In this document: piece by piece, positions 3,501-42,625 of the stretch | How the letters are laid out: the number at the start of each line of letters is the position of its first letter | Numbering within the stretch: position 1 is the stretch's first letter | Source: a virus | DNA length: 50,167 bases | Strand: one strand, 5' to 3' | IMG/VR virus record: IMGVR_UViG_3300025695_000018 | Span: 1 to 50,167 of that record | Made by a program: the position numbers and the translations under genes | The notes under the pieces: generated by a model | Told to the model about the DNA's origin: nothing | What the model saw: only the letters and a program-made list of their open reading frames with translations | Databases searched by the model: none

Positions 3501-5775
3501 TGACAGATTGAAACCCACTTGTATATTTACTACTCCAACCTTCTCTAACCTCATCATTTCTATCTACCGCATTTATTCTATTAAAGAATGTAGTAGAGTT
3601 TACGTCCACCAAACTTGATATGTTAGAATTTATAATTTCATCTTCATTTATTGAATCATTTTCACCTGCGTCACGTCCTTCACATGCACAAGCCTGACAC
3701 TCAGGATATGATAAGTTTGGTAAAGGAATAGCGGATAACGGACATTTCTTTTGTAACGTAATTGGCGTATATGTTGGACAATTTATTTTACTACCCTGAC
3801 CTATTAACCACGCCAACCCTTTAAAAATATTACATATGATAATAATAACCCCAAATAATACGGACAGTATAACACCTAACAATAATCTCAATATTGGCCA
3901 TAAAAAACAGATGACGTGACCGATAACCGTCAACGATAAAAGTACTGGTGTGAAAATTGTCAGTAATAAATTGATAATTAAGAACAACAAGTTGAAGTTC
4001 CTAACACCATCATTAACAGGGAATTTATTAGTATCACCCTCACACCCTCTATCTAACACCTCTTTAATACCTAAGAACCTCGCACGACCATAACCTTTTC
4101 TATACTCATCAATCAATTGTGATGTAGTATATACCTTATTGTAATTCATCATATAGAATGAATCCTCACATGCTATTGCCGCGTTCTTATCAGCATAGTC
4201 ATTCCAATCTAAAGAAAACGCATATGACTTTTGAAATTGGATGTAGTCATAGTCAAACTTCTCAACTTCAATAGTTGCATTATTACCAACGACCACATTA
4301 CCATTTGTAGTTGTCTTTTTGGTAACAGTTATCGTTACATTACCACCCGATGGGAAATCAATCCATTTTTGTGTTTGTAAAATATTATTAACATACACTT
4401 CAATCTTTTCCGTATCACCGTTTGGTTTAACATATATAGATTGATTAGCTCCAATCGTAATAGTCTTAGACTCAACAACCTGAGTAGTATCAAAGAAATC
4501 AACGTTAGTAATAATTGATGAACTCTTAGTTGAAGGGTCTACTCCTGAATTTGCAGTAGTCCCTGTCCATCCATGTTCCCTGATTTGTGGAACAATAAAA
4601 TTGGCTCTTTGAATCTCCCCTCTAATTGGGAATAACGCATCCCCATTGATTGCAGGACCATTCTCCTCTGATTGATATTTTACCTTAAACCTGTATTTAC
4701 CCTTAGTCGGAACACCTATAGATGGGTCATTAGAGATTACTGTCTCACCATACTCATTGGTAACAACGTAATCTAAGTTCATCGGAACATCCACAACAAA
4801 GGTCCCGTCTCCATCAATTACTTTACCACCATTTAACAGTTGGTATTGTTCCAATATTGGGTCACCATTTTCATCGATATCAATGGTCTGTCTAACGGCT
4901 AAAATTTCACCAGGACCAGTAGATAAATTACATAAGTCACCTTGTTCTGTTCTCGGTTTACAATTTTTCTTGATTGGTCTGTTGTCATTATCAGAAAAAA
5001 TTGAACCCATAAAGACCGACGTTGGTTGTATTTCAATACCCAAGTCCCTTAAATCAAAGTCCGTTCTTGTGATACCAATATTACATAGGTCTTCTTGACC
5101 CCAAAATGGTGTTACATCAATATCTTTAACACTATTAATAATCTGAGGTAAAGCATTAAGATTTTCAGAAGCTTTGAAGTTGGTTCCGTCAAACTGCTCG
5201 GCAACACCCATATTCATTCTTATCAAATCCTGAGGTCTCAAAGAGAAACAACCCATATCTGATAAGTCTAAATCCATCATAATCTTTTGACTACCTAATG
5301 GAACACCAGTAATCATAAAGTCACCACTGTCATTGGTCTTTACAACATACTTGTAGTATTTTTCATAGATTTCTAATACCTCATTCCTTGTTAAAACATC
5401 ACCTCTCGATGGGAATGTTCCTGTCGGTGTGTGTCCACCATACTGTTTCTCATAAGGTAAAAGATTGTAACGATACCCATCTTCATTTTTATCGACAGGT
5501 GACGTGTATGGGTATAAGGCTGATATTACAGGGTCTTCTAAGTCCATCTCCTCAACAGGAACGAATATAGATATCTTCGCATTAGCAATACCGAAACCAC
5601 TATTACCAACAACACGACCCACAACCACACCATAATCGGCACAGAATTGTGAGTAAACATCCTCTTGTCTTAATTTGAGAGATAAAATTTCGAGAAAATC
5701 AAAATCTTGTTCAATATTAACACGGATGTTTTGGTCGGTCCCTAATTTTGTTCTAATCCTATAAGACTTAGCCAT
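580..5775 (-). CDS. Very large tail/baseplate protein with internal membrane-type segment
   Basis: A 1731-residue protein beginning MAKSYRIRTKLGTDQNIRVN. Residues about 45-175 resemble a carboxypeptidase-regulatory/Cna-B-like beta sandwich (a VVGRVVGNSGFGIANAKISI strand pattern, then a TNDSGDFMITGVPLG turn), a fold common in phage appendages. Residues about 593-659 are almost entirely hydrophobic, long enough for two or three membrane-spanning helices. They are followed by a Cys-rich stretch (NC, KKC, PEC, CACEG) that could bind metal or form disulfides. The remaining 1000 residues are polar, Asn/Ser/Tyr-rich and beta-like. The gene lies just downstream of gp25 and gp6 and is coupled to the next gene by GTGA, so a baseplate or tail-tip role is likely. 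The exact function is unknown. A hydrophobic segment in a virion protein hints at membrane contact or penetration during infection. Confidence 0.85.
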   Translation of the reverse strand: MAKSYRIRTKLGTDQNIRVNIEQDFDFLEILSLKLRQEDVYSQFCADYGVVVGRVVGNSGFGIANAKISIFVPVEEMDLEDPVISALYPYTSPVDKNEDGYRYNLLPYEKQYGGHTPTGTFPSRGDVLTRNEVLEIYEKYYKYVVKTNDSGDFMITGVPLGSQKIMMDLDLSDMGCFSLRPQDLIRMNMGVAEQFDGTNFKASENLNALPQIINSVKDIDVTPFWGQEDLCNIGITRTDFDLRDLGIEIQPTSVFMGSIFSDNDNRPIKKNCKPRTEQGDLCNLSTGPGEILAVRQTIDIDENGDPILEQYQLLNGGKVIDGDGTFVVDVPMNLDYVVTNEYGETVISNDPSIGVPTKGKYRFKVKYQSEENGPAINGDALFPIRGEIQRANFIVPQIREHGWTGTTANSGVDPSTKSSSIITNVDFFDTTQVVESKTITIGANQSIYVKPNGDTEKIEVYVNNILQTQKWIDFPSGGNVTITVTKKTTTNGNVVVGNNATIEVEKFDYDYIQFQKSYAFSLDWNDYADKNAAIACEDSFYMMNYNKVYTTSQLIDEYRKGYGRARFLGIKEVLDRGCEGDTNKFPVNDGVRNFNLLFLIINLLLTIFTPVLLSLTVIGHVICFLWPILRLLLGVILSVLFGVIIIICNIFKGLAWLIGQGSKINCPTYTPITLQKKCPLSAIPLPNLSYPECQACACEGRDAGENDSINEDEIINSNISSLVDVNSTTFFNRINAVDRNDEVREGWSSKYTSGFQSVMAGLETDEEEEFSRAPFTDKDYNASTSKKFRSRDLPLAEKFNLFNAKAKYHDHGGWNSIKVKVNKNLPINSSKSHTDNVLMMMVDPSEIGNYPAGQLISFQNPDNSTDPNVNTNITGNTTFNSNGIANITVPYMSTNQASTSTNYEITGGSQNITYKFVSDVEYFQVVTATTVGDYHNISQNLPNGDMVSGYGSSYSNSFAQRYLFGWQKVEKTGGDNPDEYPDDSTGTFDNGKFEINAPNIQLNNGWKDLVIVFLVRGVDVNTPKQDIEYELTKLYGGTSFNGSVKVRGRYYLNLPIQPYSSSNNKAVIRHDELTTNNSTDNSGYRRLYFKSFTYTPSQSDYQSYTTKLHRHYNAYSVKDKEQIGMYVGSTKSLGNSISTTDNAVRVSDSGSWDRMISGNNYEWGYYDEEIVEGVGAIFCKDGTPNVPTDYVFMSPTYYRLYPNHTIAMSDNEYILMRSDRLPTSDKHNFRFALHQNSKFMVYKVSEDGEVTGISTGVESLGGEGDDFNEDAGAIATQINQTFSCEGMVPLECYSGSGYSIGVQPSDDRCYYVDNAKTVKKMYGGCYYLITKNFAIGEDFQSIAEWKARFRMMFALCNNVVSLSFVNNWVNGSLYMFAFQKDDIYSNDINSSKFLTNPEYQYCEDTIVYQTQNNSFFYRATPYNNGFIGRDNEPQDNILGQSNAANKKFLGNPTTIMDLGPRDEFIKELCYNPEFQGYIVDTVKTSSYNDTSDIMQLFAISRLTSSGFWNQIFGLGDASIARLFSRDNSRLDGDIAQLISINSEYGVIPYLGSNYTDDDVLYYEVNGDPTLGVFFQANTVNRDMITPGRFTFQDINGSFLYDYYGHNDQEVPFYKWELYGGPTTIFGTDVNDWVTKRSAGGDGIGSINYQSIDRMLPGPEFNSDGSSPSTRRPGFIYNSEIVGNEIQPKISMTSRPNKFMLGSPYFFYFGLRKGNSSMNRFIDKFVLNQDTL

Positions 5776-16240: not shown

Positions 16241-16861
16241 TTATTCTTCGTCATTGATAGGTGTATCGAATGACTTTTTGATATCTGCATCTGAATAGTT
16301 TTCTACTTCATCAGAGGTCAAAACGTATTCGTTCTTACCTGTTTGTTGCATCTCAACTTCTTTGTCAGCGAAGAAGTCTGTCAACTTCTGATTGTACGGA
16401 TAACTATCCAAACTTCTCAATTGTAATTTCTCCTCTGGTGACTTCTCACGATATTTCTCAACCTTAGCTTCGATGTCATTAATCTTTGTTAAGATTTGGT
16501 CCATCTGTGACAACTTGCTTTCTAAGTCGTTCAACTTATCAAACATTGAGTCCATATACTCGTCTTGTTTATCTGAGATTTCGTTTTGCTTGTTTACTAA
16601 ATCTGTAATCTCTAACTCTTCAGTGTCACCACTCATATCTTCACCTTCAACATTACCCTCGTCGTCTAATTTCTCAACATCAGGGTCAGTTTCAATATCA
16701 ACAGGTTCAGGAATTTCTTCAGCACCCACCTCTAAATCTAATTCGTCACCCGCATCAGGTGTTTCATCACCTAAGTCTACAGGTTCTTCTTGTTCTACCA
16801 AATAAGAATTAATAGAGTTGTGTCTTTTTAATTCTTCTAATATTTTATTATCGATTGCCAT
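16241..16861 (-). CDS. Acidic coiled-coil protein of unknown function
   Basis: A protein of 206 residues from the ATG at 16861 (MAIDNKILEELKRHN). An upstream ATG at 16879 would add MVKSNT and overlap the previous stop. The later start is preferred because its leader, AAAAGTAATACT, matches that of the preceding gene. Residues about 20-85 are very acidic (Asp/Glu with Gly and Pro, low complexity). Residues about 90-140 form a heptad-like coiled coil (DKQDEYMDSMFDKLNDLESK and a following KINDIEAKVEKYREK). The C-terminal 60 residues look folded (SYPYNQKLTDFFADKEVEMQ). There are no Cys residues and no membrane segment. Such architecture suits a scaffold-like or assembly factor, but I do not recognise the family. 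It follows the 74-aa gene and ends before a terminator. Confidence 0.8.
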   Translation of the reverse strand: MAIDNKILEELKRHNSINSYLVEQEEPVDLGDETPDAGDELDLEVGAEEIPEPVDIETDPDVEKLDDEGNVEGEDMSGDTEELEITDLVNKQNEISDKQDEYMDSMFDKLNDLESKLSQMDQILTKINDIEAKVEKYREKSPEEKLQLRSLDSYPYNQKLTDFFADKEVEMQQTGKNEYVLTSDEVENYSDADIKKSFDTPINDEE

Positions 16862-16871
16862 AGTATTACTT

Positions 16872-17096
16872 TTAACCATTCAATAGTGTCTTCACACCGT
16901 GAGGTGTTTCAACTTTAAGGGTTCTGTTTACTTGTCTTGTATTGTCAACTCGCTCAATAAGTCCGTCTCTCATACTAACGGTATAACAGTCTCCTGTGTC
17001 TAAGTCACAAACCTCTTTGTAACCATTTCCGGCATCTCTTTCAGTAATTCTAGTGTCTTTCGACAAATACTGGTCTAATAATGATTTTACGTTCAT
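16872..17096 (-). CDS. Unknown 74-aa protein
   Basis: A 74-residue protein, MNVKSLLDQYLSKDTRITER then a YKEVCDLDTGDCYTVSMRDG strand-turn-strand segment with two Cys seven residues apart, ending HGVKTLLNG. It looks like a small helix plus beta fold. No family is recognised. Its start is supported by a late-promoter-like motif 16 nt upstream and an AAAAGTAATATT leader. It is the first gene downstream of the giant 2143-aa hub-like gene, with a 43-bp gap, and is followed 10 bp later by the acidic coiled-coil gene, so the pair probably share a transcript that ends at the hairpin at 16.2 kb. Confidence 0.75.
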   Translation of the reverse strand: MNVKSLLDQYLSKDTRITERDAGNGYKEVCDLDTGDCYTVSMRDGLIERVDNTRQVNRTLKVETPHGVKTLLNG

Positions 17097-31995: not shown

Positions 31996-32847
31996 TTATA
32001 CTTCTTTTTTCTCTCCTCCTTTAGTTAAATAAGTTTTTACTGGTTTATCATCTTTATACTCTTTATCTAAAAAGCTTTTAATAGATTCAATATTACCAGG
32101 GTCGTCATCAGAAAATCCAATCTGAGGAACGAAATTGTTTTTTACGTCGTTCTTAAAGAATGCTCTCTGGTTCAGTTTCGAAGCCATATCTTTAACATAA
32201 GAGATAAATTCTCTTAATGCTTTGATTTTTCCTTCTTCAGGGTTCGCAGCACTTCCCTCACCATAAGTCACTGGATGGAACCTCAACATATCAAGATACT
32301 TTTCAATAAGGTCTTCATCTGTCATATCGTCATCACCAGCAATTTCACGAAACTTTTTAAGGTTACTTAACAACTCCTCTTTACTGATACCTTTATGATT
32401 AGTCATAATCATATTGTAAACTGCATCCCTTAAAACAGAAGGAGTGTGACCCCTTGCTGTTATGATTGAGAAAATGGAACCACCATTAATTGCTTCAACA
32501 AAGTCATCCCAAGAAGGGCCAATATCGGCAATCATCGCATCAACAATAAATTGTGAGTCACCTTCAGTCGTGAAGTTTCTATATGGATTTTCAGCGTATC
32601 CGACAACTGTTTCACCATTATATTCAAAAGGTTCTTTACCTAAAATCCCACGATATTCTGCAAAATCCTCAGTAGAAATACCTATTTCATTACCATCTTC
32701 GGTTTTAACAATAATCTTTGTTGGCATCATCATAATGTTATCATCCCAATCAAAAGCATAATACTTCATATCAGGACGACCAGCATCGTCAAAACCTTCT
32801 TTGAGTTCTTTTTCCTCAATATATTCTTTTAAAATTGAACGAATCAT
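31996..32847 (-). CDS. HAD-superfamily hydrolase
   Basis: A 283-residue protein with HAD motifs. Motif I is YAFDWDDNIMMMPT (nucleophile Asp and second Asp two residues later, about residues 33-35). Motif II is the Thr in FSIITARGHTPS. A basic residue for motif III may be K in KNDVKNNF, and motif IV is GFSDDDPGNIE. The N-terminal 25 residues form a charged helix (RSILKEYIEEKELKEGF). The insert between motifs I and II holds the cap-like region. HAD enzymes are usually phosphatases; T4 PseT has such a 3'-phosphatase domain, but no kinase domain is present here. Its position between sheath and tube genes is unusual for an enzyme. Its ATG overlaps the TAA end of an upstream small reading frame (TAATG). 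Confidence 0.8.
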   Translation of the reverse strand: MIRSILKEYIEEKELKEGFDDAGRPDMKYYAFDWDDNIMMMPTKIIVKTEDGNEIGISTEDFAEYRGILGKEPFEYNGETVVGYAENPYRNFTTEGDSQFIVDAMIADIGPSWDDFVEAINGGSIFSIITARGHTPSVLRDAVYNMIMTNHKGISKEELLSNLKKFREIAGDDDMTDEDLIEKYLDMLRFHPVTYGEGSAANPEEGKIKALREFISYVKDMASKLNQRAFFKNDVKNNFVPQIGFSDDDPGNIESIKSFLDKEYKDDKPVKTYLTKGGEKKEV

Positions 32848-33065: not shown

Positions 33066-36000
33066 TTAGATATCTTCGAACGATGCTCCCGTTGGAGTAA
33101 TCAAGAATTCAATATCAATGAATTCAAGTGCTCTTGTTGGTTTCAAGTAAATTTTACCCGTCAATTGGTTATTATCCAAATCTTCAGGTGTATTTTCTAC
33201 AACCACACGGAAGTCAATCAAACCTCTATCTCTTCTAATAGAATCCAAGATTGGGTTAACTGAATCTAAGAAGTCTTGTCTTACTTGGTCGTCGTTTTGT
33301 TCGAACAACAATCTTACTGCTACCGCTGAAATCAACTTACGAGCTTGTAACAACAATCTTCTCACATTAATTCTGTCAAGTGCAGATTCTCTAACTTGTA
33401 GAGTCTTGTTACCCCAAATTACAGTACCCACATCTGAGAATGTTGCAATTGGGTTCAATCTACCTTGGTATAGTGTGTCTCTATCATCTTGAGTCAACTT
33501 CTTACGTGCTTTAACTGCTGACACCAAACCTCTTGTGTAACCCGCAGTTGCGAACCAAGGGAATGCGATGTTATCAGTCAATGCTAAGTTCTTAACAACC
33601 TCAGATGTTGGTGGAATGTAAACTTGTGTGTTGTTTACACTATCTCTCGTCAAAATCCATGGATAGTAAGTTGCAGTGTAGTTAGAGTCGATGTTAGTCT
33701 CCTCCAAATTATCAACTGCCTCATCAGGGTAGATGAAGTCTGTGTCAAACGATGATGTATTAGGAACATACATGTCATAGTCAGGTGTTGTACAAATGTA
33801 GATAGAATCCGCTCTGTCCGTCTCAATCATATCAATAGCTTCTTCAACCAAGTTTGAGTGGTTTACATAGTCAACACCTGGTGTTGAGAAGATATTAATG
33901 TTAACTGCTTCAGGGTTCTCGAATGTTTTCTGACCTAATAAGTAAGCGTAGTAATCAGAGTTAGCCCAATCCGTTGAATCTTCACCTACCGTGATTTGTT
34001 TGAACTGACCCCATCCTGTAGCGTCCGGGAATGAAGGTGAAGGTGCAGCACCTGCCAAGTAACCCGTTCCACCTAAACGGAACGAATCTTGATTTGAACG
34101 GAACTCTCTATAGATATCCCATCCATCAAAACCTCCCTTGGGTGCCACCGTGAATTTACGTGCATTTAACTTATAGTAGGGGTTTGTTTGTGATGTTGGT
34201 TCACTTCTGAATTCTGCATCACCCACTTCAAACGCTGTTTCACCTGAAGTAACATAACCACCAGCAATTGAAACTACCGTAGCTCCTGAGTCCATGTGGA
34301 AACCTTTTGTTAAGTATGCCCAATCATTTCCTTCAGTTGCAGTAGAAATGTTAGTTGGGTTTTGTTTACCACCATACATAAAGAAGTCAGAATCAATACC
34401 AACAGTGTTAGAAACACCTAAGTATGTCTTTCTTACTTTATCACCCGCACTTCTTGTTGAGTTATCACTTCCCGAAGTAGTACCGAATGGTGGGTTAAAA
34501 ATAACTTCACCTGGTGTGTTGTATTTTGTTTTATAAACAATGAATGGACTCTTAACTCCTGAATATTCTCTGAATACGTAACCTTCAAAACCACAAGGAA
34601 GTGCATCTATCGGCGCATCCTCGTCCATTTCTAACATTATGTATTTAGATTTCAATTCAAATTCACCATTAGATGTACCCACTTTCTTAGCTACGAAATT
34701 ATTTTCACCTGGATTCATACCACAGTTAGTAAACTTCTCTAAAATTACAGGATTAGCGTCCGTATCAAAATAATCACGAACAAGAACATCAAATGTTAAA
34801 TTAGCGAATGAGATATTAGCCACAGAAATCTTAACTAAGTTGTTTGCCACATTACCGTCAGAAATTAAGATAAATCTAAATAGACGGTCAACTTGTGAAC
34901 CACGTAACTCAGAAACTAAGTAAGGAGTAGATGGTGTTTGGTATTGTTCTAAATACCAACCGATAGAACTGTTAGTTCCCTCATCTTCTCTTGCCGAAGG
35001 AAGAGCAGTTAAATCAGAATTCAAACCTCTAATCTTTCCTAACCTATAACCGTTAGTTAATAAGTTGTAATATGTCTCTTCAATAAACAATGGTACTTCA
35101 GTTCTGTTTTTACCGAAGTTAGTTCCACCGAATACTTTACTTAAGTAATTCGTATCAGTTACACTGAATGATGTTTTGAACGTGAAGTTATCACCAACAT
35201 TAGTAACACCTGAAATACCGAATGAAGAATATGGATTTTTAAGAACATCAGCATATGTTCCTGATACATCCATAACCACTTGAGATGTTCCACTTGCCAT
35301 ATAAACAGGACCACCGTCACTGTTATTATTAATACCTCTTGAACGTAATGTTGCAACTACTAAGTCGTTGTATTCTGTAAATGCTGTTGCCACATAATTA
35401 ACAACAGTACCCGAAACAGTTCCTGAGAATGAATCCACTGCGAATTCATCTAAAGTGGTTACTGCTGCGTTGAAAGAAATACCTGAGTAGTTATCACCTG
35501 TACCAGGTTCGAAACAACCGTAGTACCAAGGGTCCATTAATGAATCATCGTAATCTGCTACTGAGTTATATAGACCATCAACCGAAAGTTGGTTGTTTGA
35601 ATCTGAAATAGTGTAACCATCACCAATAAACGAGTTGTAAACTGCGTCAGTCATAACACCCCATTGTGCCCCTGTAGTTGCACTTAACGCATTACTATTA
35701 ACGATACTCATTAAGAATGTTGATAGTTGACCCGACATAGTTGTTGAGTCACCATTATATAGTGAAATTGAATCAGTGATATAATCACTTAATGGTGCTG
35801 AGAATGAACCTAAGAAGTCAACAATAGTTGAACCTGTAGTTGCACTAAAATCAACTGACCATGTAGATGTTGTAGATGCCGATAATGTTGCCGGGTCTAA
35901 GTTTGCTTGTGTCGTAATAGACCAAGATGGACCCGCATCATAACCTGACAAACCTAATACTCTTGTTACAAATAACTGATTAGACTGTTGTAAATATGCT

Positions 36001-36245
36001 TTCGCTATGTAAGCGGCTTCATATTTTGGAATTTGCGTATTTACAAATTTTGTTGGATTAGTACCTCCGAAGTACGCTTGAAATTCGTCGAAGTTTGAGA
36101 TGTAAATAGGTTCAAAAGCGGGACCTGATAAAGTCTCACCTACAATACCTAAAGTTGTTACACCCACACTCTGTGCTACGAAACTCAAGTCTCTTTCTGA
36201 GGTGTAAACACCTGGAGATACAAAGACTTTGTTTGAACTTGCCAT
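33066..36245 (-). CDS. gp18: Tail sheath protein gp18-like, oversized
   Basis: A 1059-residue sheath, against 659 for T4 gp18. The N-terminal FVSPGVYTSERDLSFVAQSV and GETLSGPAFEPIYISNFDEF are typical of T4-type sheaths. The C-terminal part carries the conserved contractile core: VYIPPTSEVVKNLALTDNIA, ATAGYTRGLVSAVKARKKLT, LYQGRLNPIATFSDVGTVIW, DRINVRRLLLQARKLISAVA and LRPTRALEFIDIEFLITPT-like ending. The extra 400 residues lie between, roughly residues 110-700, and are Ser/Thr/Gly/Asn-rich, probably surface domains on the outside of the tail. Contraction of the sheath drives the tube through the cell envelope. Its leader is A-rich after a TATTTAT motif, and a perfect hairpin follows the stop. 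Confidence 0.95.
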   Translation of the reverse strand: MASSNKVFVSPGVYTSERDLSFVAQSVGVTTLGIVGETLSGPAFEPIYISNFDEFQAYFGGTNPTKFVNTQIPKYEAAYIAKAYLQQSNQLFVTRVLGLSGYDAGPSWSITTQANLDPATLSASTTSTWSVDFSATTGSTIVDFLGSFSAPLSDYITDSISLYNGDSTTMSGQLSTFLMSIVNSNALSATTGAQWGVMTDAVYNSFIGDGYTISDSNNQLSVDGLYNSVADYDDSLMDPWYYGCFEPGTGDNYSGISFNAAVTTLDEFAVDSFSGTVSGTVVNYVATAFTEYNDLVVATLRSRGINNNSDGGPVYMASGTSQVVMDVSGTYADVLKNPYSSFGISGVTNVGDNFTFKTSFSVTDTNYLSKVFGGTNFGKNRTEVPLFIEETYYNLLTNGYRLGKIRGLNSDLTALPSAREDEGTNSSIGWYLEQYQTPSTPYLVSELRGSQVDRLFRFILISDGNVANNLVKISVANISFANLTFDVLVRDYFDTDANPVILEKFTNCGMNPGENNFVAKKVGTSNGEFELKSKYIMLEMDEDAPIDALPCGFEGYVFREYSGVKSPFIVYKTKYNTPGEVIFNPPFGTTSGSDNSTRSAGDKVRKTYLGVSNTVGIDSDFFMYGGKQNPTNISTATEGNDWAYLTKGFHMDSGATVVSIAGGYVTSGETAFEVGDAEFRSEPTSQTNPYYKLNARKFTVAPKGGFDGWDIYREFRSNQDSFRLGGTGYLAGAAPSPSFPDATGWGQFKQITVGEDSTDWANSDYYAYLLGQKTFENPEAVNINIFSTPGVDYVNHSNLVEEAIDMIETDRADSIYICTTPDYDMYVPNTSSFDTDFIYPDEAVDNLEETNIDSNYTATYYPWILTRDSVNNTQVYIPPTSEVVKNLALTDNIAFPWFATAGYTRGLVSAVKARKKLTQDDRDTLYQGRLNPIATFSDVGTVIWGNKTLQVRESALDRINVRRLLLQARKLISAVAVRLLFEQNDDQVRQDFLDSVNPILDSIRRDRGLIDFRVVVENTPEDLDNNQLTGKIYLKPTRALEFIDIEFLITPTGASFEDI

Positions 36246-38131: not shown

Positions 38132-39889
38132 ATGGAAGAAAATAAAGTTGTATCAAATATACCTGAGATAAAGGCGACTCGTATTTTAGAAGATTACGAG
38201 GGGTATAATAATTATATCCTGTCCATCAAGAAAAAAATGAAAATCAAAAAGCATTTTAAGATGACTCGTGCTCAGGCGGACTACATTATTGACTTTCACG
38301 ATGTCACCCCAAAGATAGCCAGAAAATGGGTGGAGTTGGACGAATACTTCGGAAAGAAGATGATGGAAGAGAAACTCCTAACCAAAAGACCCACACAAAT
38401 CTATGTTGAAAAGATATTGGTGGAGAAGGACAAATCATTCCATATCTACGGTAAGTTGTTTGAGAACCAAGAAATGTATGAGTTTTGGTTACCTCGAGCG
38501 GCTATCATCCAAAACAAAGAGAGACAAGTAGAGGTAGACTATTCAAAGTATTCTCATCGTCCACCATTGGAACACCAAAAACTTGCAGTTGAAAAGTTGG
38601 TGGGTAACGACAAATACATCCTTGCTGACGATATGGGATTGGGTAAAACTACCTCAACTGTGATTGCTACGTTAGAAACGGGAGCTAAGAAAATATTAAT
38701 CATCTGCCCCGCCTCCCTTAAGATTAACTGGCAACGTGAGATTGCTAATTATACTGATAGAGAAGTTTCTATTGTTGAAGGAAAGAAATGGGAACCTGCA
38801 GACTTCACCATCATCAACTTTGATATTCTTAAGAATTTTCACGACCTAAAGAAAGTGAAAGAGTCTTTGGTATTGAAAGAAGAGTTTGATTTGGTGATTA
38901 TTGACGAAGCCCATTATATTCAAAACAAACAAGCACAGAGAACAAAGATTGCCAATGATATCTGTAAGAAGGTTGGTAAGGTTTGGTTGTTAACTGGTAC
39001 GCCGATGACATCTCGTCCCATCAACTACTTTAACCTTTTAGATTTGGTGGACTCACCTATCGCCTACAATTGGATGGCATATGCTATTCGTTATTGTGAA
39101 GGTTATCAATTCAATGTTGGTAACAGAAAAGTATGGAATGTCAATGGAGCTTCCAACCTAATAGAACTTAGAGACCGAACAAAAACACACGTCCTAAGAA
39201 GATTAAAAGAAGACATCTTAGATTTACCCGATAAAATTCTTACACCTGTTTATCTAAGACTAAAGTCAAAACAATACGAAGCCCTTATGGGTGAATACTT
39301 CGATTGGTATGACAACAACTCAGAGGAATCATCCTCATTAACCGTGCAGTTTTCAAAACTGATGAAAGTAAGACAAGTAATTGCCGAAGAAAAGGTAAGA
39401 GACACCATTGAGATTGCACAGAATATTATTGAACAGGGAAAAAAAGTTATTATCTTTACAAACTTTACCGACACATTAAACCAAGTCAAATCACATTTTG
39501 GAAAGGCTGCCGTCGCATTGGACGGAAGGATGAGCAAACCCGCGAGACAACACTCGGTGGATGAATTTCAAAATAATGAAAAGGTAATGGTATTTGTTGG
39601 TAATCTCAAAGCCGCAGGTGTGGGTATCACACTGACCGCAGCTGAAGCTGTTATTATGAATGACCTCTCGTTCGTTCCTTCTGACCATTCACAAGCAGAA
39701 GACCGAGCATATAGATATGGACAGAAATCAAACGTATCCGTTTTTTATCCAATTTTTGAAAATACAATTGAAGGTGTTATTTACGACATCTTATCCAACA
39801 AGAAAAATGTATTTGAAACAGTTATGGGTGATAACGTAGACAAAGGGACCATTGTAGAGGAAATCTTAAATACAATTTCGAGAAGATAA
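38132..39889 (+). CDS. SNF2-family DNA helicase/translocase
   Basis: A 585-residue superfamily 2 ATPase. Motifs in order: Q-like HRPPLEHQKLAVEKL, I ILADDMGLGKTTST, Ia LIICPASLKINWQREI, II VIIDEAHYIQNKQA (DEAH), III VWLLTGTPMTSRP, IV VIIFTNFTDTLNQVKSHF, V NLKAAGVGITLTAAEAV and VI SQAEDRAYRYGQKS. This is a complete SNF2 core of the compact SMARCAL1-like kind. The N-terminal 140 residues lack a recognised domain, and no nuclease domain is fused. In T4-like phages a related helicase, UvsW, remodels forks and recombination intermediates; an equivalent role here is inference. It is the first gene of the plus-strand island and lies 44 bp before the superoxide dismutase fusion gene. Confidence 0.93.
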   Translation: MEENKVVSNIPEIKATRILEDYEGYNNYILSIKKKMKIKKHFKMTRAQADYIIDFHDVTPKIARKWVELDEYFGKKMMEEKLLTKRPTQIYVEKILVEKDKSFHIYGKLFENQEMYEFWLPRAAIIQNKERQVEVDYSKYSHRPPLEHQKLAVEKLVGNDKYILADDMGLGKTTSTVIATLETGAKKILIICPASLKINWQREIANYTDREVSIVEGKKWEPADFTIINFDILKNFHDLKKVKESLVLKEEFDLVIIDEAHYIQNKQAQRTKIANDICKKVGKVWLLTGTPMTSRPINYFNLLDLVDSPIAYNWMAYAIRYCEGYQFNVGNRKVWNVNGASNLIELRDRTKTHVLRRLKEDILDLPDKILTPVYLRLKSKQYEALMGEYFDWYDNNSEESSSLTVQFSKLMKVRQVIAEEKVRDTIEIAQNIIEQGKKVIIFTNFTDTLNQVKSHFGKAAVALDGRMSKPARQHSVDEFQNNEKVMVFVGNLKAAGVGITLTAAEAVIMNDLSFVPSDHSQAEDRAYRYGQKSNVSVFYPIFENTIEGVIYDILSNKKNVFETVMGDNVDKGTIVEEILNTISRR

Positions 39890-39910: not shown

Positions 39911-39917
39911 TATTTAT
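39911..39917 (+). promoter_or_regulatory. Late-promoter-like TATTTAT motif before SOD fusion gene
   Basis: Plus-strand GATATTATTTATAAGAAAAT with 16 nt to the ATG at 39934. It shows that the motif follows the direction of transcription, since this gene is on the plus strand. An inverted repeat (CCATACG at 39900-39906, CGTATGG at 39931-39937) brackets it and includes the start codon. Confidence 0.5.
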
Positions 39918-39933
39918 AAGAAAATGAAAACGT

Positions 39934-41475
39934 ATGGAATTCAAAAAAAGCCAACAAAGAATTCATGAGATAGAAAAACAAATCTCAGATTCTGAAAAAA
40001 AAGAAATAATTCAAGAACAAGAAAACAAAATGAAAAGGATAACGGCAATTAAGTTACCGTATTCTTATTCTTCATTAGACCAATTCATTGACAAAGAGAC
40101 AATGAATGTTCACTACAATCAACACTACAAAGGGTATATTAAGAAACTCAACAACGCTCTGAAGTCGATAAACGACAAAGACTTGGATTTAGAACTTATT
40201 ATCAAAGGTATATCTCGTTACAACAGAACCATCAGAAACAACGCAGGTGGTGCTTACAACCACGAACTATTTTGGCAAATGTTATCACCAAAAAAACAAG
40301 AACCGACAGGACCTGTTTTAGATAAAATTAAGAAGAAGTTTAAGACTTACGCTAACTTTAAAAAAGAATTTAAGAATAAGGCTCAACAACAATTTGGTTC
40401 AGGTTGGGTATGGTTGGTATTAACAAAAGGTGGAGATGTAAAAGTAATGACCACCTCAAATCAAGACAATCCAATGATGAACACTATGAAAAATGGTGGT
40501 ATTCCATTGTTAGGGTTGGATTTGTGGGAACACGCTTACTACTTAAAATACAAAAACAAAAGGGATGAATATGTTGATAACTTCTTTGGTGTAATCAACT
40601 GGTCGTTCGTCAACAAACAGTTTGACCAATTTCAAAAGGGTAAACTAAACGAATCAAGAGTGGTAAAAGAACTTATAACCGAAGGAGTATCACGTGGGTG
40701 TTCCCCAAAACAAGTGAATACATACAGAATGATATTCAACAAAAATCCTCAGGTTAAAAAGAAATTTATGTATGCCATCATGGATATCTTGAAAGAGGTA
40801 TTCTCTGATTTCTACTATGATAAAAATAAATACGCTCAAGGTCAGATGTCAGGTATATATGATTTTGAACAACCAGGTCGCTCAGTTATCAACAAATTAA
40901 ACACCAACTACAGTGCGTTCTGTATCTTAGTTAATGACTTAAATGCAGTTCTAAAACACTACGGACAGGACCCATTAAACTTCGTCGACAAAGACTTCAA
41001 AGGTCAATTATACGAAGTTCAAAGAATGATTAATATGATGGTTCAGTTCAGACACCGTATCTTCAACCAAGATTCCGCAACATTCCAAACAATTATGGCT
41101 TCATTAGATAAGTCAAATAAGTTCGGAGATGAAAGAGAACTTAAAGCGGTTGTAAACATGAAGGATATTTTTAACACAAAGAAGGTATTCAAAGTTGGGG
41201 AACTCGGAGGTAAAGATGATATGATTGGTGGTATCGACGCAACAGTTGATATTGATGGACAAACAAAGACCATTCAAATTAAACCATTTAACGGTCACGA
41301 TGAAGAAGAAGGTAGAATCGTAGTATATGGAACTGGTAACGTAAAACCTTATTCGACTGACTATATAGCTTTCCACAGTGACTCAAAAGGTACTATCGTA
41401 TTCAAAAACGACGACACAAAGATTGTTAACGGTAGATTTACCTTCCCCGCTGATAGTTGGGTAAATCCTAAATAA
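39934..41475 (+). CDS. Superoxide dismutase (Mn-type) fused to a PD-(D/E)XK-like domain
   Basis: A 513-residue two-domain protein. After a charged N-terminal helix (to about residue 35), residues 36-225 are a full Fe/Mn superoxide dismutase: LPYSYSSLDQF, metal ligand His in NVHYNQHYKGYI (with the second-sphere His and gateway Tyr), ligand His in GGAYNHELFW, FGSGWVWLVL, and ligands Asp and His in LDLWEHAYYLKY. Gly in NNAGGAYNH and Gln in TSNQDNP are the MnSOD versions of the residues that separate Mn from Fe enzymes. Residues 230-400 are helical and unrecognised. Residues 405-495 have E...GGIDATVDIDG...IQIKPF, a pattern like a PD-(D/E)XK nuclease core with QxK, then STDYIAFHS and TIVFKND strands. 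No signal peptide is present. The catalytic state of each half is inferred. Confidence 0.9.
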   Translation: MEFKKSQQRIHEIEKQISDSEKKEIIQEQENKMKRITAIKLPYSYSSLDQFIDKETMNVHYNQHYKGYIKKLNNALKSINDKDLDLELIIKGISRYNRTIRNNAGGAYNHELFWQMLSPKKQEPTGPVLDKIKKKFKTYANFKKEFKNKAQQQFGSGWVWLVLTKGGDVKVMTTSNQDNPMMNTMKNGGIPLLGLDLWEHAYYLKYKNKRDEYVDNFFGVINWSFVNKQFDQFQKGKLNESRVVKELITEGVSRGCSPKQVNTYRMIFNKNPQVKKKFMYAIMDILKEVFSDFYYDKNKYAQGQMSGIYDFEQPGRSVINKLNTNYSAFCILVNDLNAVLKHYGQDPLNFVDKDFKGQLYEVQRMINMMVQFRHRIFNQDSATFQTIMASLDKSNKFGDERELKAVVNMKDIFNTKKVFKVGELGGKDDMIGGIDATVDIDGQTKTIQIKPFNGHDEEEGRIVVYGTGNVKPYSTDYIAFHSDSKGTIVFKNDDTKIVNGRFTFPADSWVNPK

Positions 41476-41512: not shown

Positions 41513-42625
41513 ATGTCAATTATTACAGAACCACAAAGAACCAAACTTTATACGAGAATTCGTCATCTTTTAGGTGCACCTTTAAGGGGTATTGAAATAG
41601 AAGATGAAATGATGGATTCATTATTGGAGTTATCTATTGAAGATTACTCACAATATGTAAATGATTGGTTAATTGAATCACAATGGACATCACTATACGG
41701 ACTAAACCAAGATACTCAATCAGTTGCTAAAGCACTTATCACACGTTCTTTAGATTGGGAAACACAATACACTTACGCATATTCTAAAATTGTAGGTTTA
41801 CAAGCGGGTGGTGACTCTGAATTAAAAAAGGATTATTTTGACCTTAAGGCAAACCAACAAATTTATGAAATACCTGCGGGTAGAGAAATAAATGAACTTT
41901 TATGGTTTACACGAGCAGAACTTGACGCTGCGTTTTTTGACCCATTCATGGGTGGTTTCGGAGGATTTGGTGGTATTGGTCTTGGTGGTGGTGCGGGTTT
42001 CTCACAAATGGGTGGTCAGGGTAATTACTTTGTTTCACCAGGTTTTGATATCTTACTTAGAATGCAAGATATTAATATTAAAAGAAGACTTATAGGTGGT
42101 GAATTAACTTATCGAATAACCGCATTACCTGAGGGTAAAAAGGCCATACATCTTTATAACGTACCTGGAGGTAAGTTTGATTTTGGTAACATGGCTAACA
42201 ATAACTATAGAGTGTGGTATTGGTATTATGAAACAGACGATAGAGAAAGTTGTTTGGCTAAAAACCCTGATATTGTTAGATTACCTTCAGATGTAAATAT
42301 GGACAACCTTAGATGGGATGAACTTAACTCACCGGCACAAACATGGGTTCGTAGATGGTTTACTTCTTATGTTAAAGAGACATTAGGAAGGGTCAGAGGT
42401 AAATTCAGTGGTAATCTAAAAACCCCTGATTCTGAACTCCAACTAGAATATGATTCATTACTTAGCGAATCGAAAGATGAGAAGTCTAAGTTAGAGGAGG
42501 AACTAAAAATGAGATTAGAAAGACTCCGTCCTGATAAAATGATGGAAGTTAAAGCAAGTCAGGCAGAAAGTCTGAACAAACAACTACAATACAGAGCACT
42601 TCCACGACAAATTTATATTGTCTAA
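41513..42625 (+). CDS. Neck protein, gp13-like
   Basis: A 370-residue virion protein. The N-terminal 110 residues are helical (EPQRTKLYTRIRHLLGAPLR, EDEMMDSLLELSIEDYSQYV) and include RSLDWETQYTYAYSKIVGLQ, then DYFDLKANQQIYEIPAGREI and NELLWFTRAELDAAF. This order recalls T4 gp13-type neck/head-completion proteins (gp13 is 309 aa). Residues about 143-165 are a Gly/Phe-rich low-complexity loop (FMGGFGGFGGIGLGGGAGFS). The C-terminal part has PAQTWVRRWFTSYVKETLGR and a charged helix. It would help connect the head to the tail. It follows the superoxide dismutase gene by 37 bp and overlaps nothing; the 110-aa gene starts one base past its stop. The family assignment is moderate. Confidence 0.8.
   Translation: MSIITEPQRTKLYTRIRHLLGAPLRGIEIEDEMMDSLLELSIEDYSQYVNDWLIESQWTSLYGLNQDTQSVAKALITRSLDWETQYTYAYSKIVGLQAGGDSELKKDYFDLKANQQIYEIPAGREINELLWFTRAELDAAFFDPFMGGFGGFGGIGLGGGAGFSQMGGQGNYFVSPGFDILLRMQDINIKRRLIGGELTYRITALPEGKKAIHLYNVPGGKFDFGNMANNNYRVWYWYYETDDRESCLAKNPDIVRLPSDVNMDNLRWDELNSPAQTWVRRWFTSYVKETLGRVRGKFSGNLKTPDSELQLEYDSLLSESKDEKSKLEEELKMRLERLRPDKMMEVKASQAESLNKQLQYRALPRQIYIV

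Follow-up and report, generated by a model that had tools for sequence, protein, structure and literature searches.

A superoxide dismutase-nuclease fusion in the helicase-neck slot of T4-like phages: a possible capsid-cargo polyprotein

The prohead protease gp21 of phage T4 cuts after the motif L/I-X-E, and the T4 propeptides are capsid-targeting sequences, such that a protein joined to one of them is packaged and delivered, while a propeptide with one substitution at the cut residue still targets the capsid (PMC9026906). A superoxide dismutase (SOD) that is expressed late and packaged in the virion has been described for chlorovirus PBCV-1 (PMC7019647). The window analysed here is the whole stretch of 50,167 bases of the uncultivated virus contig IMGVR_UViG_3300025695_000018, the gene content of which is T4-like, with genes for a tail sheath, tube and baseplate, a gp32-like protein, ribonucleotide reductase, DNA polymerase, a UvsW-like helicase and a neck protein. 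The tail sheath protein (33066-36245, minus strand) has 1059 amino acids; by tblastn, its matches to other T4-like sheaths are confined to the C-terminal ~350-700 residues. An intact open reading frame with its ATG at 39934 and its stop at 41475 encodes 513 amino acids, in which a sequence-only reading had recognised an Fe/Mn SOD joined to a nuclease-like domain, a combination for which it knew of no described enzyme. A literature search, in which few subscription papers or preprints were covered, likewise revealed no report of a phage protein that joins SOD and nuclease. On balance, and with a slight lean in its favour, the SOD-nuclease is here interpreted as a T4-like capsid-cargo polyprotein, in the order leader 1-SOD-leader 2-nuclease, which would be cut in the head and from which both enzymes would be injected. 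The features of the locus are collected in Table 1, where an arrow marks a predicted cut.

Table 1. Features of the SOD-nuclease gene and its borders, in window coordinates
Feature	Position	Strand	Basis
UvsW-like helicase, upstream slot border	38132..39889	+	PHROG DNA helicase; conserved position
Late-promoter-like element TATTTATA	39911..39918	+	15 nt 5' of the SOD-nuclease ATG; read from the sequence
Leader 1, residues 1-28, helical, ending at the predicted prohead-protease site IIQE28↓Q29	39934..40017	+	Motif conservation in phage leaders
Fe/Mn superoxide dismutase domain, Mn type, residues 34-233	40033..40632	+	Pfam, conserved ligands, Z 24-26 to solved SODs
Linker/leader 2, residues 237-250, KLNESRVVKELITE, predicted cut site E250↓G251	40642..40683	+	Motif conservation in relatives
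Largely helical part of the nuclease half, residues 253-390, containing the conserved block GRSVINKLNTNYxAFC	40690..41103	+	Alignment, model
Predicted PD-(D/E)XK nuclease core, residues 391-513; E402, D435, Q448, K450	41104..41472	+	Fold matches, invariant residues
Neck / head-tail adaptor gene, downstream slot border	41513..42625	+	PHROG head-tail adaptor; conserved position

The first half of the protein is, by alignment and modelling, a complete Mn-type Fe/Mn SOD. The Pfam domains Sod_Fe_N (E 1.4e-20) and Sod_Fe_C (E 2.3e-38), both far over the cut-off, span residues 39-228, and the modelled half can be overlaid on solved structures of Fe/Mn SODs over ~195 residues, with the Z scores given in Table 1. 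Alignment with relatives shows that the metal ligands H60, H110, D196 and H200, the second-sphere H64, the gateway Y68 and the Mn-type Q177 and G194, the last of these two residues before the Asp ligand D196, are all kept, with roles that we take to be those of the equivalent residues in E. coli SodA. The sequence-only reading had listed every metal ligand, the gateway Tyr, the second-sphere His and the Gly/Gln discriminators of the Mn type, and alignment, Pfam and model agree with it. The ligands and second-sphere residues persist in relatives with as little as ~42% identity. Several relatives (L072-L084) have Cys or Ala, and not Gly, at the position that tunes the metal, two residues ahead of the Asp ligand. 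The closest cellular SODs share 33-45% identity with the phage SOD domain and come mostly from Bacteroidota, which suggests that the phages carrying the SOD-nuclease probably infect Bacteroidota. Several of the closest bacterial SODs (L407-L412) begin with Tat-type signal peptides (RRxFL), and the phage SODs may therefore descend from exported Bacteroidota SODs. G017 (107590-107799) and G018 (57074-57283) each contain a second stretch with weak similarity to SOD, interrupted by two stops, which may be a decayed copy.

In the second half, a GGID...QIKPF pattern (residues 432-452) had been read as a likely PD-(D/E)XK core, for which structure prediction was proposed as a check. As the full-length fold search was swamped by SOD matches, the C-terminal half was folded separately with 37 relatives, giving a mean pLDDT of 92 and a pTM of 0.86. 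The C-terminal ~120 residues are predicted to adopt a PD-(D/E)XK nuclease fold. They match mainly PD-(D/E)XK chains, over ~100 residues, including Hjc (2wcw; Z 7.9), I-Ssp6803I (Z 7.3), Eco15I (Z 7.1) and DpnI (Z 6.1), with PvuII and EcoRV lower, and I-Ssp6803I and Hjc also take the top Foldseek ranks for the nuclease half. These Z values are moderate, and that of Hjc lies within 1 of those of I-Ssp6803I, Eco15I and SPARDA, with no single PD-(D/E)XK family ahead; the case is carried by the agreement among the fold matches together with the catalytic-type residues. E402, D435, Q448 and K450 do not vary among 37 relatives, in which identity goes as low as 44%, and the same E/D/Q/K set is retained in a homologue from the 735-kb phage LR756501 at 21% identity. 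Predicted fold and invariant residues thus both favour the PD-(D/E)XK-like assignment. No name for the nuclease half was returned by PHROGs, Pfam, NCBIfam or PADLOC, and its sequence profile gave chance-level matches only against the PDB. A search with the distant LR756501 homologue yielded no additional relatives, and named phages gave no match to a diverged nuclease half by tblastn. A separate search of bacterial genomes, within its sensitivity, returned no relative of the nuclease half. The nuclease half also lies within UniProt A0A8D9CCA0 (TM 0.82, 23% identity), a BFVD match of 1113 amino acids from an uncultured marine phage; architectures larger than the SOD-nuclease may exist.

The search for the same fusion in other phages, which the sequence-only reading had recommended, returned >100 distinct relatives. 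Whichever half was used as the query, the same in-frame joint was recovered in dozens of independent contigs at 44-97% identity, which rules out an assembly artefact; the fusion is also an old one. UniProt A0A6J5L953 ('superoxide dismutase [uncultured Caudovirales phage]', 501 amino acids) appears to be the same SOD-nuclease fusion, its C-terminal part matching the nuclease half over 252 columns (TM 0.90, 36% identity). This entry is annotated only as SOD, and no description of its second domain or junction motifs was found. That the fusion is an artefact or chance joint, an idea with nothing behind it beyond the odd domain combination, has a vanishingly small probability in view of these contigs and of A0A6J5L953.

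The genomic position of the gene is equally constant. Among 163 distinct relatives, a same-strand helicase lies directly upstream in 140 of 144 testable cases and the neck gene, remarked upon as a neighbour in the sequence-only reading, directly downstream in 147 of 149. Between these borders lie SOD joined to the nuclease half or to a diverged version of it in 112 of the 163, the nuclease half alone in 22 and SOD alone in three, while a metallopeptidase-like domain (HExxH) precedes SOD in 12, SOD and a NucB domain in 10, and SOD and another C-terminal domain in four. The slot is empty in nine of the 78 loci of a neck-anchored scan. Separate genes in relatives had been named as a finding that would speak against the fusion; separate forms were indeed seen, but as lineage variants of one slot. 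In L402, the metallopeptidase-like domain is a separate gene overlapping the SOD-nuclease gene. The larger polyproteins in the slot (L258, L260, L265, L268, L276, L285, L314, L317, L327 and L370) combine the HExxH metallopeptidase-like domain and SOD with a further domain showing nuclease-like E/D/xK patterns. The NucB module has its own invariant pattern (RG.DFE ... P.D ... ISCK) and, judged by eye, looks like a second PD-(D/E)XK-type module, while the C-terminal domain of L327 shows a D...QVK pattern, also judged by eye. In two relatives with the nuclease and no SOD (L168 and L169), a remnant of the beginning of the SOD lies between the two leader motifs, which indicates that SOD was lost in that line. 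No SOD was found elsewhere on the 308-kb contig G007, which has the nuclease half alone. The late-promoter-like element upstream of the SOD-nuclease gene is also found 5' of several structural genes within the window, suggesting that late expression is likely. The sequence TATTTAT[AC] occurs <=70 nt from the start codon in 59 of 79 fusion relatives. The late-type promoter motif of the sequence-only reading is the element at 39911-39918.

The junctions on either side of the SOD carry a common motif. (I/L)xE is found at both, as IIQE28↓Q29 ahead of the SOD and as LITE250↓G251 behind it, and the residues with pLDDT <50 in the full-length model (20-32 and 236-240) coincide with or adjoin both junctions; a low-confidence helix runs through the linker in the model. 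Across 40 fusions, the linker is variable except at K237, E240, I/L248 and E250, with entropies of 0.45, 0, 0.47 and 0 bits, respectively, against 1.3-3.2 bits at most neighbouring positions. At the second junction, all 64 relatives scored show [IL]xE↓[GSQ]. Of 100 distinct linkers, 94 contain the double motif, where shuffling predicts 2.9, and all 90 distinct phage leaders have [ILV]xE 7-14 amino acids ahead of the SOD core, where shuffling predicts 31.6; linker and leader sequences share descent and are not independent events, and these counts are a measure of conservation only. Such a pre-core site is carried by only two of the 69 closest cellular SODs, and none of the 69 has an added C-terminal domain.

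Similar leaders recur across the occupants of the slot. Standalone phage SODs also open with a leader, the linker forms the N-terminal leader of the nuclease-only proteins, and a linker of the same kind follows the SOD whatever module comes next; where there is no further module, the protein ends there. A standalone homologue of the C-terminal module of L269 starts MKYIITES. These sequences are most simply read as the product of in-frame joining of cargo genes that carried leaders. Degraded leaders are seen in some nuclease-only proteins (L164, L187 and L221), the second linker motif is absent from L253 and L269/L273, and L085, L086 and L091 are without leader 1 in frame as read. In L085 and L086, a C run before the SOD, at about 4300-4340, puts leader 1 out of frame, which could be a sequencing error or a real frame change.

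The window contig, a fragment, contains neither a protease nor a capsid gene of its own, and both were read from sister genomes. Three of these (G001, G002 and G004) have genes for a gp21-family protease and for a capsid protein of the gp23 family. The G001 protease retains T4 H85 and S140, which we take to be the catalytic residues of the enzyme, and in the G001 capsid protein HLINE↓A aligns with SFLTE65↓A66 of T4 gp23, presumably the position at which the latter is cut. Leaders of the form [IL]TES...(I/L)xE[GQN] are N-terminal in seven of 349 G001 proteins (0.34 by shuffling) and in six of 405 G007 proteins (0.32 by shuffling), and one leader-bearing gene adjoins the protease gene in a sister genome. 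Several unrelated proteins of no known family in G001 (L126-L141) and G007 (L232-L248) open with a leader near KKIIRLTESDLxxIVKRVLxEQ, and leaders of this type may mark head cargo. Within the window, an unannotated protein (31996-32847, minus strand) has the leader-like start MIRSILKEYIEEKELKEG, ending LKE↓G; it gave no Pfam or PHROG match and its body recalls a HAD-type hydrolase. An acidic protein of 212 amino acids (16241-16879, minus strand) has a leader-like start ending YLVE↓Q and a weak match to a virion structural PHROG.

If the SOD-nuclease is a capsid-cargo polyprotein, the protein would be made late and its leaders would carry the precursor into the prohead core. There, a gp21-type prohead protease would cut after (I/L)xE, at E28↓Q29 and E250↓G251, so that the head would contain SOD and nuclease as two separate enzymes. 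On injection, the two would enter the cell along with the genome; the SOD would clear superoxide near the entering DNA or within the infected cell, and the nuclease would cleave DNA of the host or competing DNA. We infer packaging, cleavage, injection, catalytic activity and the nuclease target alike. The cargo reading draws on the conserved (I/L)xE at both low-confidence junctions, which equals the T4 prohead-protease consensus, on the gp21-family protease and matching capsid cut site in the sister genomes, on the fixed slot beside the neck gene with its late-type promoter element, and on the similar leaders of nuclease-only, standalone SOD and unrelated proteins, which are rare on cellular SODs. 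Among the three roles offered by the sequence-only reading, that of a virion component injected with the genome is thus favoured, through junction motifs which that reading had missed. DNA processing in response to superoxide found no support, and a single fused enzyme is probably not the mature form, SOD and nuclease half occurring apart in related phages.

The main rival to the cargo polyprotein is an uncut bifunctional enzyme which acts unpackaged in the infected cell, where the SOD would protect, the nuclease would process host or phage DNA and the linker would serve as a hinge. It fits the single continuous reading frame of >100 relatives and the helix modelled, at low confidence, through the linker; (I/L)xE is also a short motif, and a role as a helix or hinge could account for the conservation of the linker. 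The identity of the junction motif with the T4 prohead-protease consensus, its recurrence before different modules and its N-terminal position in nuclease-only and unrelated proteins, however, argue against this enzyme, as does the occurrence of either domain without the other, which implies that no coupling is needed. We therefore regard it as unlikely, although it deserves to be taken seriously. A packaged but unseparated protein, targeted to the head by its leaders, cut at leader 1 only or at neither site and delivered as one chain, draws on the same targeting evidence as the cargo polyprotein and on the separation of targeting from cutting in T4 propeptides (PMC9026906). Its second site is, however, as conserved as the first, with Glu always at P1, making this version improbable. 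It is less probable by far that the SOD half lacks dismutase activity and has a structural or binding role; the setting is unusual for an SOD, but the retention of all ligands and second-sphere residues at identities as low as ~42% is not required of a dead domain.

Beyond the single gene, and with the arguments for and against nearly in balance, the helicase-neck slot is possibly a swap-in locus for cargo polyproteins, in which enzymes joined by repeated capsid-targeting/prohead-protease sites would be released in the head by the maturation protease and injected as a cocktail. As judged from the occupants of the slot, the swap-in set would comprise SOD, at least two nuclease-like families and a metallopeptidase-like domain. 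If true, this would be a phage counterpart of the viral polyprotein and, as far as the literature search showed, the first phage SOD carried as virion cargo. T4-style leader packing of head proteins would be extended to multi-enzyme polyproteins, and an antioxidant enzyme and a nuclease would be delivered together at the first moment of infection. It would also become testable why a phage needs SOD at entry, and whether the nuclease is directed at the DNA of the host, at plasmids or at rival phages. The leader motif provides a sequence handle with which to list candidate injected proteins of uncultured T4-like phages, which are mostly unannotated.

Compared with known systems, the PBCV-1 enzyme differs in belonging to the Cu/Zn family, with an unrelated fold, in a eukaryotic virus and without a fusion (PMC7019647). 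The SODs of jumbo phages (the Pseudomonas phage PA5oct group and Vibrio phage 2.275.O) are also phage-encoded Fe/Mn SODs, but are standalone single-domain genes in other genomic settings, at 25-31% identity. With the cellular Mn-type Fe/Mn SODs, mainly of Bacteroidota, the whole domain and all ligands are shared, whereas the phage forms add an (I/L)xE leader and, often, further modules. The nuclease half shares the predicted core fold and E...D...QxK residues with PD-(D/E)XK nucleases, nearest by fold to the Hjc resolvases and I-Ssp6803I, but has Q at the usual E/D position and an added helical region of ~140 residues; it is without a detectable sequence family and is placed with neither. The closest parallel is with the T4 internal head proteins (IPI-III and Alt), whose targeting sequences are cut by gp21 (PMC9026906), and with which the SOD-nuclease shares a leader ending in (L/I)xE, a late T4-type gene and, in sister genomes, a gp21-family protease with a matching capsid cut site. 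The SOD-nuclease differs in its second, internal leader between two enzymes, at which cutting is predicted, and a cargo polyprotein would, unlike the T4 internal proteins, string two or three enzymes in one precursor.
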